Under the pieces are notes generated by a model that worked only from the letters and a program-made list of their open reading frames with translations, had not been told where the DNA came from and made no database searches. From NCBI GenBank assembly GCA_038396605.1, contig CP121690.1:1706500-1770499 (forward strand): DNA of 64,000 nucleotides, given 5' to 3'. This document shows positions 2,085-25,341 of this stretch, in pieces. Positions within the stretch are counted from its first letter, which is position 1. Every line of letters starts with the position of its first letter. This DNA comes from Eubacteriales bacterium mix99. Its GTDB lineage: Bacteria; Bacillota; Clostridia; Caldicoprobacterales; DTU083. Made by a program: the position numbers and the translations under genes.

Positions 2085-3770
2085 ATGAAAAAAGCTTATC
2101 GTTTCTTGTGTATTGTTCTGGTGATGATGCTGGCATGGAATCTGGCTGCCTGCAGCAGATCAACAAAAAAGTCTAACAAGCCATCAGCTGGCAAATTTTC
2201 TGATTCCGCGGGCAACTCCGGATCGGACAAGACAGCGGAAGGCAAAAAGAAGATCAGTCCCCGGAAGAATAAATTGCCTATTACCACAGAAAATATTAAG
2301 CTGGTATTATATGATGGTTTCCCCACCGGAGCCAGGCAGATTTACAGCAGTATGGCCGAAACGGACATTGTAAAAAAAATGATGAAAGAGACCGGCTTAC
2401 AGCTTGAGTTTGTACATGCGCCGGAAGGTGACGACGGCACCTTCTTCAATACCATGATAGCCAGTGAGAGTTTGCCGGATATTCTTCGTGACGGATTCGG
2501 TTCCTATCCGGGTGGCCCCATGGCAGCCATGGATGATGGAATTTTGCTGGACGCCACCGATTTGATCGATAAATATGCCTATTACTACAACGGTATTCTG
2601 GACCAGGGGGGACCTGAATTACGCCGCAGGGTGATGTCAGACGATGGCCGCTACAAACTGTTTGGTGTTACCTTTTTGCCGGAATACCTGGACGGGGTAA
2701 GGCATGGGGGCTTTCTTACAAGGCAGGATCTGCTGGACAAAGTGGGAATCACAAAACTGCCTGTTACCATGGAAGAATATGAAAAAATGTTTGACGCCTA
2801 TCTTGGTTTGGATATTACTCCCTGGGCAGTTGCCCTGTCGGAATGGCAGTTTAATGACTATGCTCCGGTTGCATCGGCATACGGCGTTCGATACAGTGGA
2901 TTTCAGTTAAGGGATGGGAAAGTTACATATTCCCGCTGTTTGCCGGAATACAAGGATTTCCTGAAGAAGATGGCTGAGTGGGTGAAGAAAGGCTATATAT
3001 CTTCAGATGCTTTCAATCAGAAAGCGGCCGATGCAGGAAAAAGCTTTCAGGCGGGTACTGCAGGCGCAGTGTTATCCGGCTCATGGGAAAATATCACACG
3101 CGAATCGGTTGGAAAGGTATCCGATCCCAGCTTTGAGATTGTGGGATTGGCTTTGCCACGTTTAAAGGAGGATGATATGCTGACAACATTTTCTGCCGTA
3201 CTGAGCAACCCGGAAATGGCGCCGAGGTACATTTCTGCCGGCTGCAAGCACCCGGAGGAAGCGGTTCGGTTTGTAGATTATTTATATAAGCAGGAAACGA
3301 TGAAGATGACTGCCTGGGGTGTGAATACCAAAGAGCATACTCTTTGGAAGGACAATCCGGATGGAAGCCGTTCCTGGACGGATTTTATGGTCAAGAACCC
3401 TGAGGTCGATTATGAGACCATGCGGCAGCGATATACCTTTAATCCCATGCAGGGTATGTGGGATACCGAAATGGAGAAGCTTCAATATGAAATTCCTCAG
3501 GTTCAGCAGCCCTGGAGCGTATGGTCTTACAATACGGACGATTCTGATGTAATACCTAAATATGTTACCCGTACGGCAGAAGAAGAACGGGAATTGAATA
3601 CGTTAATGGATGAAATTGATACTTATTCCGGTGAAATGGTACAAAAGTTTATATCCGGTCAGGAACCCCTGGACCACTTTGATAATTTCGTAAAGCAATT
3701 GGAGAAGCTGGGGATTGAAAGAGCCTGTGAAATTCATCAGCAGGCATATGAACGGTATCTGGATCGCTGA
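2085..3770 (+). CDS. Extracellular sugar-binding lipoprotein, LplA type
   Basis: A 561-residue family 1 solute-binding protein. A hydrophobic signal peptide ends in the lipobox LAAC with the lipidated Cys at residue 23, followed by a Ser/Lys-rich linker to about residue 65. The mature part resembles the large (about 500-560 residue) binding proteins paired with LplB/YteP-like permeases, which capture oligosaccharides at the outer membrane face. It starts at an ATG behind GAGGAGGAATAATTCAA. The two permease genes follow after 32 nt and 13 nt, making one operon. The Gram-positive relative with the same gene set is B. subtilis lplABCD; the substrate here is inferred from the nearby GH4 enzyme, not seen. 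Confidence 0.88.
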   Translation: MKKAYRFLCIVLVMMLAWNLAACSRSTKKSNKPSAGKFSDSAGNSGSDKTAEGKKKISPRKNKLPITTENIKLVLYDGFPTGARQIYSSMAETDIVKKMMKETGLQLEFVHAPEGDDGTFFNTMIASESLPDILRDGFGSYPGGPMAAMDDGILLDATDLIDKYAYYYNGILDQGGPELRRRVMSDDGRYKLFGVTFLPEYLDGVRHGGFLTRQDLLDKVGITKLPVTMEEYEKMFDAYLGLDITPWAVALSEWQFNDYAPVASAYGVRYSGFQLRDGKVTYSRCLPEYKDFLKKMAEWVKKGYISSDAFNQKAADAGKSFQAGTAGAVLSGSWENITRESVGKVSDPSFEIVGLALPRLKEDDMLTTFSAVLSNPEMAPRYISAGCKHPEEAVRFVDYLYKQETMKMTAWGVNTKEHTLWKDNPDGSRSWTDFMVKNPEVDYETMRQRYTFNPMQGMWDTEMEKLQYEIPQVQQPWSVWSYNTDDSDVIPKYVTRTAEEERELNTLMDEIDTYSGEMVQKFISGQEPLDHFDNFVKQLEKLGIERACEIHQQAYERYLDR

Positions 3771-14781: not shown

Positions 14782-15388
14782 TCAGTCTGTTGTTTCCCTC
14801 TTCCTTTGTTTATGAAACTGCCGATACTGGGTGGGAGAGATTCCAATCGTTTTTTTGAAGGCCTTGCTGAAGGACTGAATCGTCTGATAACCCAGCCGGT
14901 ATGCAATTTCAGTGATATTGTATTCATTGGACTGCAGCCATTGGATCGCCTTCTCCATCCGTTTCCTGGTGTAGTACTCCTGGAGGGTGAACCCTGTCTC
15001 TTCGGAAAACACCCGTGACAAATAGGGATAGCTGTAGCCCAGCTCATGTCCGATATCTGCAAGCCCCGTCAGGCTCAACAGCTTGCTGTCAATGTAATTG
15101 ATAATCTGATAAATGGTATCTCCCTGAGACTTTTCCGGATTTGGGATATACTTCTGTTCCCAGGAGGAACAAAAACTCCGATAGGTATATACCAGGATCT
15201 GTTGCAGCAGTATCTTGATCATCAGTTGGGAATATTCATTGACCTGGTTGATTTCTCTCAGTACCTGACGAAAGGGAATGTCAATATCCAGGCAGTCTCT
15301 TGCGCAGGGCACATCCACCTTCTGAAGCATCTTTTCAATATGAATCAAGGCATTTTGCATATGGGGGTATTGGTTGAAGTTAAAGCCT
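14782..15388 (-). pseudogene. Truncated AraC family regulator (N-terminus lost)
   Basis: The minus strand encodes an intact AraC DNA-binding domain near its 3' end (SLTGLADIGHELGYSYPYLS and ITEIAYRLGYQTIQSFSKAF) with part of the linker domain upstream. At about 15388 the reading frame runs into sequence that, on the other strand, is the C-terminal part of an ABC permease. The cupin-like N-terminal half is absent. The open frame extends upstream by chance to about 15525, but those residues are antisense to permease coding. I read this as a remnant left by a deletion. A functional short regulator cannot be excluded, because the DNA-binding half has no stop or frameshift. Confidence 0.75.
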
Positions 15389-15795
15389 TCAAAACGCTCC
15401 CCAAAAGTCTTCAGGAATCTGCCAGGATTGATGGCGCAAATGAATGGACCATTCTGTTTCGTATCGTCGTGCCCTTGTCCAAGGCAGTCCTGGCAGTGAT
15501 GTTGTTGTTTTATGCAGTGGGGCATTGGAATGAATGGTTCAATGCCATGATTTATCTGAGGGACAGGGGAAAGTTTCCATTGCAGCTGATTTTAAGGGAA
15601 CTACTGGTTGAAGAAAGTCAGACGGCAACTGTTTCCCAGTTTTCCAAGGTGATAAAGGTCGGAGACCTGGATATGTATAAACCGCTGATCCGATATACAA
15701 CAATAGTAATTGCCACTGTGCCGGTGTTGTGTTTCTATCCCTTTATTCAGAAGTACTTTGTAAAAGGGGTTATGGTCGGATCCATTAAAGGATAG
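15388..15795 (+). pseudogene. C-terminal fragment of an LplC-type sugar permease
   Basis: From about 15388 the plus strand encodes FKTLPKSLQESARIDGANEW through QKYFVKGVMVGSIKG. This matches the last 130 or so residues of LplC-like permeases, including the EAA loop. It closely parallels the intact permease at 4788-5678. The first half with its start codon is missing, and the upstream part of the frame is antisense to the truncated AraC gene. A nonfunctional remnant of a second oligosaccharide transporter. Confidence 0.85.
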
Positions 15796-15850
15796 GCGCG
15801 AAGAACTGAAATGGGCTGATAATTCCTGTGGAAACTCAGGTTCCCGGGGA

Positions 15851-15879
15851 TTGACAACGATATTGGGATTTGCTATGAT
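15851..15879 (+). promoter_or_regulatory. Promoter of the folT leader
   Basis: Consensus TTGACA (15851-15856), a 17-nt spacer and TATGAT (15874-15879). Transcription would start near 15886, about 26 nt before the riboswitch aptamer. Confidence 0.8.
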
Positions 15880-15911
15880 AAGCAAGTAATAAGGTTTGTG
15901 TAGAACCAGAA

Positions 15912-16024
15912 GCAGAGTAGGATCTTGTGCGTTGATCACACGATTGCAGTGCCTTCTGAACGGGGAGTTGTCAGAGGGACGAAAAGCCGGATTGGCTTGC
16001 GGTACAAGGTTCGCATCCCGCTGC
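15912..16024 (+). ncRNA. Tetrahydrofolate (THF) riboswitch aptamer
   Basis: The closing stem GCAG/CTGC, the GAGTAG block after it, the GCGTT element, the CGAAAAGCCG segment and the 3' block GCGGTACAAGGTTCGCATCC appear in the order known for THF riboswitches. It lies upstream of a folate transporter gene, the usual target in Firmicutes. Identification is by eye; a covariance-model search would settle the exact ends. Confidence 0.8.
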
Positions 16025-16095
16025 TACATAATAAGGAGAAGTATTTTTCAGTGCCTCTTGTTATGTAGCCGAGCTGCATAACAGGAGGTGCTTTT
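16023..16095 (+). promoter_or_regulatory. THF riboswitch expression platform (two mutually exclusive hairpins)
   Basis: CCTCTTGTTATGTAGC (16054-16069) can pair with GCTGCATAACAGGAGG (16073-16088) over 16 bp with two G-U pairs. This is followed by TGCTTTTA. The same strand can instead pair with GCTACATAATAAGGAG (16023-16038), which overlaps the last bases of the aptamer. Ligand binding should hold the aptamer end, free the second hairpin and give an OFF state. That hairpin is terminator-like and also hides the AGGAGG that serves the leader ORF at 16096. Confidence 0.75.
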
Positions 16096-16194
16096 ATGAT
16101 AACGACCTGGCATGTCCGTTTAACGTTGCTTCATTTTTTAAGACACGAATGTGTCTTGTCCGGCAATTTCATCGCGAAAGGAGCGGTTCGTTAA
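16096..16194 (+). CDS. 32-residue leader ORF directly abutting folT
   Basis: An ATG seven nt after AGGAGGTG opens a 32-codon frame (MITTWHVRLTLLHFLRHECV...) whose TAA at 16192-16194 touches the folT ATG at 16195. Its ribosome binding site lies in the riboswitch hairpin, so folate status would control its translation. Translation would be expected to pass on to folT, whose own AAAGGAG lies inside this ORF. A perfect AAGACAC/GTGTCTT hairpin lies within it. The peptide itself resembles no family I know. Confidence 0.5.
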   Translation: MITTWHVRLTLLHFLRHECVLSGNFIAKGAVR

Positions 16195-17076
16195 ATGGAT
16201 AAATCATCTATACGTTTGCGCCGCATTGTAATATCTGCGGTATTTCTCAGTATTTCGCTTGTACTTAAAACAGCCTTTTCATTTCAAATCCCCTTGTTTG
16301 GACAGAATGGAATGAGCATTGGCATATCCGGTATTTTTTCTATCCTTCCTTCCATTTTATTTGGGCCTGTTTATGGGGCTGTGACATCCGGACTTTCGGA
16401 CCTGTTGGGACACTTCCTGAAGCCCATGGGTCCCTTTATTCCTCTCATGACACTGATTGCTGCTGCCGGCGGATGGATCCGTGGCTGTCTGTGGAAGATT
16501 CTGCGGAATCGGGATGTCAGGAGGATGCGGATCGCAGTGGCTGTCCTGTCTGTATTATTGCTGCTGTTCGGCATCTGCAATATGGCATTTCTGTCCGCAG
16601 ACGGTATTGATAAATCATTTTATGACAGGGTACGGATGGACGACATCCATACGGAACGGATGCACCTTGTCAGCAGACTTCTTGTTGCCAGGACAATGAA
16701 TATGAAGGACCCTTCCGGGAATCTTGCAACATATCTATTTTTTACAACTTCCGGTCTGATCGGAAGCGCCGCGTTCGGAATCCTTCTGTTGCTCCTGGAT
16801 CTTCTGATCTCCAGGAAAGTGCGGAGTAACCAGGGGGGAGGGCAGACGATGCCATTGCTTCTGGCCATGATAGGTTCCGGCCTGATCGTTACCACACTCA
16901 ATACAATGGTAATGAGGGAGATGGTCTATACATCATGGAAAATGCTGCCGTTTGTCGTTCTGTGGATTCCCCGCGTAATCGAAGAGATTCTTGCAAATAT
17001 CATCAAGACCTATTTTGTTGCAGTGCTCCTCAGTGCTCTGAACCGACAGAGAGGGATAAAAGAAATGGTCTCCTAG
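16195..17076 (+). CDS. folT: ECF transporter S-component for folate (FolT)
   Basis: A 293-residue membrane protein. The N-terminal half (LKTAFSFQIPLFGQNGMSIGISGIFSILPSILFGPVYGA, given here as its beginning and end) matches the substrate-binding S-components of energy-coupling-factor transporters: a membrane helix set with the glycine-rich stretch FGPVYGAVTSGLSDLLGHFL. The folate assignment rests on the upstream THF riboswitch. Usual FolT proteins are about 170-200 residues; here about 100 extra residues (roughly 100-210) separate the helices. The protein needs the EcfA1/A2/T module, which is encoded at 53.5-56.0 kb. The ATG is fixed by the abutting leader ORF. Confidence 0.82.
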   Translation: MDKSSIRLRRIVISAVFLSISLVLKTAFSFQIPLFGQNGMSIGISGIFSILPSILFGPVYGAVTSGLSDLLGHFLKPMGPFIPLMTLIAAAGGWIRGCLWKILRNRDVRRMRIAVAVLSVLLLLFGICNMAFLSADGIDKSFYDRVRMDDIHTERMHLVSRLLVARTMNMKDPSGNLATYLFFTTSGLIGSAAFGILLLLLDLLISRKVRSNQGGGQTMPLLLAMIGSGLIVTTLNTMVMREMVYTSWKMLPFVVLWIPRVIEEILANIIKTYFVAVLLSALNRQRGIKEMVS

Positions 17077-25137: not shown

Positions 25138-25164
25138 GTTGCATGAAATTTGAATAGGATGGAA

Positions 25165-25276
25165 GCATGGTCTTATCGTAGACAGCAGGCGCTTCTTGAA
25201 GCTTAAACCAATCAGCCTGCCGAGGTAAGGGAATGTATTTTGAAGATACTGCCCTCTTGCCTTTGGCGAGAGGGCA
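25165..25276 (+). ncRNA. Ribosomal protein L10 leader
   Basis: The core CGTAGACAGCAGGCGC (25177-25192) pairs with GCCTGCCGAGG (about 25215-25225), the signature of the Firmicutes L10(L12)4-binding leader. It ends in a terminator-like hairpin, GCCCTCTTGC (25251-25260) with GCGAGAGGGC (25266-25275). Excess L10-L12 complex is known to bind such leaders and shut down rplJL. Boundaries are approximate. Confidence 0.85.
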
Positions 25277-25341
25277 TTTCAAATATGACCTTTCCGTGAT
25301 AAGAATCAGCCATATCCAAACAGGAAAGGAGGTGTTTTCTT

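Follow-up and report, generated by a model that had tools for sequence, protein, structure and literature searches.

The window analysed here is a stretch of 64,000 nt from the genome of Eubacteriales bacterium mix99. It contains a folT-like gene whose leader carries a riboswitch aptamer, competing hairpins and a short ORF. The features of the locus, with coordinates in the window, are as follows.

15851–15879, + strand: sigma-70-type promoter TTGACA-17-TATGAT with TG ahead of the −10 box (11 of 12 consensus matches).
15911–16025, + strand: THF-I riboswitch aptamer (RF01831, 80.4 bits against a gathering score of 36, full model 1–99).
16023–16069, + strand: antisequestor hairpin (16020–16072 folds at −18.5 kcal/mol, z −4.6).
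16050–16092, + strand: sequestor hairpin, 20 bp, terminator-like (16050–16100 folds at −30.2 kcal/mol, z −7.4).
16083–16088, + strand: Shine-Dalgarno (SD) sequence AGGAGG of the leader ORF, within the sequestor and 7 nt ahead of the ATG at 16096.
16096–16110, + strand: mini-ORF core ATG ATA ACG ACC plus codon 5 (TGG in the window, TAG or TAA in nine other leaders).
16096–16194, + strand: 32-codon ORF, probably derived by loss of a stop; its TAA (16192–16194) touches the folT ATG at 16195.
16113–16132, + strand: 5′ arm of a second hairpin, two unpaired nt after codon 5 in the duplex fold.
16177–16183, + strand: SD of folT itself, AAAGGAG, its GGAG lying within the 3′ arm of the second hairpin.
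16180–16201, + strand: 3′ arm of the second hairpin, containing part of the folT SD and the start codon.
16195–17076, + strand: folT-like ECF S component, 293 aa, long form (PF12822, 2.4e-13; TIGR04518, 57.8 bits).

The strong promoter and the THF aptamer had both been claimed in the original prediction, made from the sequence alone, and both are confirmed, the aptamer by the Rfam THF model. The two elements are separated by 31 nt. Helix P1 of the aptamer pairs AGCAG (15911–15915) with CTGCT (16021–16025), and in a covariance-model scan this aptamer is the sole THF match in the 3.13-Mb genome. A link to a folate gene may be provided by the downstream ECF S component, whose TIGR04518 score is slightly below the cut-off of 60. 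Upstream of the promoter lies an ABC permease remnant (15046–15795, + strand), residues 112–242 of which match BPD_transp_1 (profile positions 73–182 of 184). The 5′ part of this remnant is antisense to a gene for an AraC-type regulator (14782–15525, − strand), and the overlap looks like a deletion or rearrangement junction.

Downstream of the aptamer, two mutually exclusive hairpins had been proposed, the second of them hiding AGGAGG. Folding bears out both points: the antisequestor and the sequestor both use 16054–16069, both extend past the arms originally given, both are more stable than expected by chance, and AGGAGG is enclosed in the sequestor. The 5′ arm of the antisequestor has GCT (16023–16025) in common with the 3′ strand of P1, an overlap that gives the OFF logic usual for such switches. 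On this logic THF would stabilise P1, the antisequestor would lose its base and the sequestor would form.

To compare leaders we collected loci of close FolT homologues. Pattern matching across 84,980 species genomes, a method that reaches close relatives only, gave six loci beyond that of the congener (L044 in genome G001, the sole other genome of the genus compared). Two further loci, L052 and L053, came from 398 genomes drawn from the phylum. In the orders of Anaerocolumna and Scatolibacter, where 392 and 394 genomes were drawn, just more distant long FolTs turned up beyond the known loci, and FolT searches in plasmids and in viral contigs returned no match. A THF aptamer precedes folT at all nine loci of close homologues, which with the window makes ten leaders; the long-form FolTs in the tree have 293–306 aa. 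The aptamers of the window and of L044 are identical at 115 of 115 positions. By folding, the antisequestor is found in all ten leaders (−14.6 to −21.4 kcal/mol), as is the sequestor (−27.4 to −30.7 kcal/mol; the folded stretch of L052 included an additional small hairpin). AGGAGG lies inside the sequestor in each of the ten, at a distance of 7–9 nt from the start codon.

The proposal that the sequestor could also work as a terminator points to a real ambiguity: the T-run that follows it measures 4–7 nt. Such a hairpin could make the leader a transcription attenuator, with the 20-bp helix and the T-run terminating transcription in the presence of THF, AGGAGG and its ATG being left over from the ordinary THF/folT layout, and folT using its own SD regardless. 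This explanation agrees with the terminator-like call at 16050–16092 (three such sites are found in the region against 2.4 expected), with T-runs of 5–7 nt in six of the ten leaders (4 nt in the other four) and with several ordinary THF leaders that carry AGGAGG and a T-run directly ahead of folT. We nevertheless regard it as unlikely, if worth keeping in view. The run in the window is T4 only, and attenuation leaves unexplained both a stop kept at codon 5 while codons 2–3 drift and a covarying hairpin over the folT start right behind that stop.

The stop belongs to an ORF of exactly four codons that is present in nine of the ten leaders (eight end in TAG, one in TAA), the window with TGG being the sole exception. 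The peptides encoded are MIST, MVAT (three times, two of them from a Lutispora duplicate), MVIT, MKIT, MKRT, MTAT and MYSN; all except the last follow the pattern M-x-x-T (8/9). Pairwise identity is 36% at codons 2–3, 68% at codon 4 and 92% at the stop (eight loci, 28 pairs, with the window and the duplicate L047 dropped). Shared ancestry alone is a poor explanation of the kept stop, since only two of the seven inner branches of the FolT tree are well supported, namely the close pairs window/L044 and L046/L047, and the end branches of the six other rows are 0.14–0.49 long. Stalling of the ribosome at the stop of the mini-ORF is conceivable.

The 32-codon ORF abutting the folT ATG is present as the original prediction had it. 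That prediction had named stops in relatives with conserved hairpins as evidence against the ORF, and this is what the congener has: ATG ATA TCG ACC TAG, with the stop at codon 5 and with aptamer and hairpins conserved. Over the ORF stretch the window and L044 show ten differences, seven changing (stop included) and three silent, as in a sequence without coding constraint (74% changing expected); in folT the same pair shows 33 changing and 54 silent differences. The frame after codon 5 (81 nt) remains open in 24% of shuffles, which is within chance, and the product has no NCBIfam match. Being non-conserved, showing the substitutions expected without coding constraint and open at a chance rate, the 32-codon ORF is unremarkable by itself. 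It does have a good SD at good spacing and a frame open up to the folT start, as a functional leader peptide would; still, we find that interpretation hardly credible given the codon-5 stops in the congener and eight other leaders, and as a conserved peptide it is refuted by those stops and by the lack of coding constraint. What stands of the earlier claim is a leader ORF as relay for the riboswitch, a function probably conserved in the FolT clade; what falls is the conserved ORF of 32 codons.

On the best reading of the sequences, the window is a derived, stop-loss version of the four-codon leader, and the stop-start contact is a stop-loss trait of the window; TGG at codon 5 might also be a single-base sequencing error. 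Two other candidates were rejected. A relic of an older folT N-terminus would be expected to resemble the starts of short FolTs, and by eye it does not. Read-through of the conserved stop would give no constant product, since the frames after codon 5 run for 12–41 codons and their ends vary: at the folT start in the window and L044, 1 nt before it in L052, 15–20 nt before it in L045, L046, L047 and L049, 102 nt before it in L050, 177 nt before it in L048, and inside folT in L053.

The second hairpin, which the original prediction did not mention, covers the start of folT. In the window its duplex has −24.1 kcal/mol versus −12.3 ± 2.7 kcal/mol for shuffles. In all ten leaders the duplex folds leave 2–5 nt unpaired after codon 5, and the bases that follow form pairs with the folT start codon and the positions on either side of it. 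The distance from stop to start is 56–60 nt in six leaders, 84 nt in two, 126 nt in L050 and 228 nt in L048, and the outer helix is kept despite this range. The loop in L048 holds an inverted-repeat-rich stretch (2760–3015), and the helix there is unbroken. Nine of the ten leaders have a duplex more stable than that of dinucleotide shuffles at p < 0.05 (mean z −3.4; p is 0.049 in L053 and 0.085 in L050). The folT start codon is ATG in the window and L044 and TTG in the other eight leaders, and the 5′ arms differ to match.

Covariation was assessed on eight distinct rows whose arms were cut in register from the folds, L049 being out of register at a bulge. In this set 92.5% of the cells are paired and three of ten pairs are changed on both sides (nine arm pairs, eight distinct). 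Among 500 shuffles the paired fraction was reached by one, the covariation score by one and the count of doubly changed pairs by 14; further pair types were no more numerous than in shuffles (96 of 500 reach the observed count). Sliding the structure by one to three columns leaves 15.6–56.3% paired, a comparison biased toward the structure because the arms were cut in register from folds.

The aptamer, both switching hairpins, the four-codon ORF and the second hairpin with its covariation are thus seen in sequence and folding. It is probable, judging from these elements and from modelling, that the THF-I riboswitch directly targets the tiny leader ORF and relays its state to folT through the second hairpin. 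Without THF, the antisequestor would expose AGGAGG and ribosomes would initiate on the four-codon ORF; when a ribosome reached the stop, its leading edge would meet the arm paired with the folT start, so that the hairpin would open and initiation at folT would become possible. With THF, P1 would retain GCT, the sequestor would form, the mini-ORF would stay untranslated and folT masked; transcription may stop too, at the same sequestor. In the window, where TGG replaces the stop, the ribosome would traverse the second hairpin before terminating directly at the folT start (TAA-ATG), the local opening being replaced by full stop-start coupling.

We modelled the ribosome as a footprint from −15 to +15 around the P site, the length being assumed. 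In this model, initiation on the mini-ORF does nothing to open the folT start. With a ribosome terminating at codon 5, the modelled unpaired probability of the folT start goes from at most 0.05 to 0.43–0.77 in seven of the ten leaders (L045–L049, L052 and L053), and the opening cost falls in each of them; in L045, for instance, 9.6 kcal/mol becomes 2.0 kcal/mol. The codon-5 ribosome opens little in the window and in L044 (P 0.04; cost 17.0 to 11.2 and 17.4 to 11.3 kcal/mol, respectively), which in the model is due to the very stable second hairpin, and it gives no gain in L050 (0.35 to 0.33; cost 6.4 to 8.5 kcal/mol). Accessibility of the folT SD shows no consistent rise across the leaders. 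For the window with its stop lost, the model has the folT start partly open (0.29) when the P site is at codon 8 and shut once more at codon 20; at codon 28 the folT SD is fully exposed and the start is at 0.09.

The three leaders in which the modelled codon-5 ribosome leaves the hairpin closed (window, L044 and L050), together with the fact that the footprint test is a model, would suit a mini-ORF that is a decoy or brake beside an independent second hairpin, which might be a further sequestor that temperature, a protein or an sRNA opens. We think this improbable: in ten of ten leaders the hairpin keeps its position 2–5 unpaired nt behind codon 5 whatever the length of the loop, which ties it to the mini-ORF. 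A further possibility, offered tentatively and with low expectation, is that the four-codon ORF is a conserved platform that solely places a terminating ribosome at the second hairpin, possibly with a second input, so that folT would read both the aptamer and the state of translation. The second input might be the speed of termination and recycling at the stop, or folate-dependent formylation of the initiator; the latter was prompted by the idea put forward for a Streptococcus fthC uORF in an excerpt of PMC11109978. As a simple folate sensor, initiator formylation was rejected because its direction is wrong, low folate being expected to lower initiation on the mini-ORF; it is kept just as a possible second input.

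The relay through the mini-ORF, the reading we prefer, contrasts with the layout of other THF leaders. In the family of the window, the other 11 of 13 genomes (L003–L013) have, by eye, a purine-rich SD directly before folT and no leader ORF. In the class of the Lutispora genome G031, 223 of 368 genomes have a THF match. Of the places with a match we examined 70: the 30 with the highest scores and 40 chosen manually, in part because their aptamers are long. A wide SD pattern finds an ORF of at least 100 aa headed by an SD in 59 of the 70; the remaining 11 have none and are therefore of little help. Two of the 59 have a small ORF with its own SD in front of the gene. One, in L123, is a one-codon TTG ORF two bases before the gene start. 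The other, in L126, is a four-codon ATG ORF behind a weaker GGAGA, at positions 74–88 after the aptamer end (0-based); it ends 18 nt before the start of an ordinary folT with its own AAAGGAGG and may be a chance occurrence or a second, independent relay. With a narrower SD pattern, a TTG in the T-run of L082 heads 11 codons, and L078, L079 and L089 have overlapping alternative starts.

L107 and L108, further THF leaders from the Lutispora genomes G033 and G031, stand before ORFs of 173 aa and are of the ordinary type. In L046, L047, L048 and L050 the THF aptamer has a ZTP aptamer upstream of it, a tandem pairing already described as an A-AND-NOT-B gate (PMC9481103, in part); ZTP remnants were absent, at E up to 1, from L045, L049, L052 and L053, and also from 15800–16300 of the window. 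Among the more distant long FolTs, two from the order of Scatolibacter (L066 and L067) combine THF aptamers with an SD immediately in front of the folT start; ten loci (L055–L064) have no THF match. The ordinary layout, or the lack of a THF match, in these contrast loci suggests that a single FolT clade evolved the relay out of the ordinary layout.

In erm/cat translational attenuation and in the Mg2+-sensing mgtA leader with mgtL, a ribosome on a leader ORF alters a downstream hairpin. Like erm/cat, the FolT-clade leaders have a hairpin over the start of the next gene, folded in 10 of 10 and showing covariation; in erm/cat, however, the drug stalls the ribosome, whereas in the THF relay the aptamer would gate the access of the ribosome. 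Ordinary THF-I/folT leaders likewise combine an aptamer with a nearby downstream SD, but that SD serves folT itself and there is no leader ORF.

Control by a riboswitch through a uORF is already known from two M. tuberculosis leaders, and the freeing of a masked RBS by a tiny ORF from mgtQ. In the B12 riboswitch–uPPE2–ppe2 leader, as the excerpt of PMC11260477 has it, the riboswitch acts via a leader ORF termed an indispensable relay. That OFF riboswitch hides the SD of a short ORF in the leader, and the downstream gene depends on translation of this ORF, as we propose for folT; the stop-start contact there is like that of the window. It differs in aptamer and phylum, and the same excerpt describes coupling mainly by termination-reinitiation at AUGA and a gene without an SD; in the FolT-clade relatives the ORF has four codons and ends 56–126 nt (228 nt in L048) upstream, and a second hairpin hides the gene start. 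The second M. tuberculosis case is an Mbox that directly controls a conserved small uORF in the pe20 leader through translation (PMC12810186, abstract). Unlike the THF relay it is a Mg2+ sensor with Rho termination, the role of its uORF is unclear, and the abstract has no relay hairpin. In Salmonella mgtQ–mgtB, translation of a tiny ORF (8 aa) frees the masked downstream RBS, according to the excerpt of PMC8092293; unlike in the THF relay, that ORF is intergenic, has no aptamer gate ahead and depends on Asp/Glu codons. Among the matches listed for the open-licence literature, the two M. tuberculosis leaders were the riboswitch/uORF cases that stood out, and no report of a THF riboswitch with such a leader ORF was found. 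The excerpts of PMC12452182 and PMC13273304 contain nothing on a riboswitch–leader ORF–folT layout.

If the proposed relay is true, a metabolite riboswitch would act at one remove, its moving part being a ribosome that translates a four-codon ORF, in an arrangement kept across several Bacillota lineages. An ORF of four codons is far below the usual limits of annotation, so similar relays behind other aptamers could be missed, and predictions that search just for masking of the main gene's own SD would interpret them wrongly. The four-codon leaders and the stop-lost coupling of the window would be natural variants of one circuit that can be compared directly.

Two of the loci, L046 and L047, are near-identical THF-leader-folT units of Lutispora saccharofermentans (NZ_JAJEKE010000006.1), in opposite orientation and ∼25 kb apart; one of the copies adjoins group II intron matches. 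The gene after folT in Lutispora (L046, 3933–4724) belongs to the N-formylglutamate amidohydrolase family (PF05013, 3e-45), which could be a link to folate breakdown products. Elsewhere in the window, at 25158–25290, there is a ribosomal protein L10 leader (RF00557, 65.1 bits).
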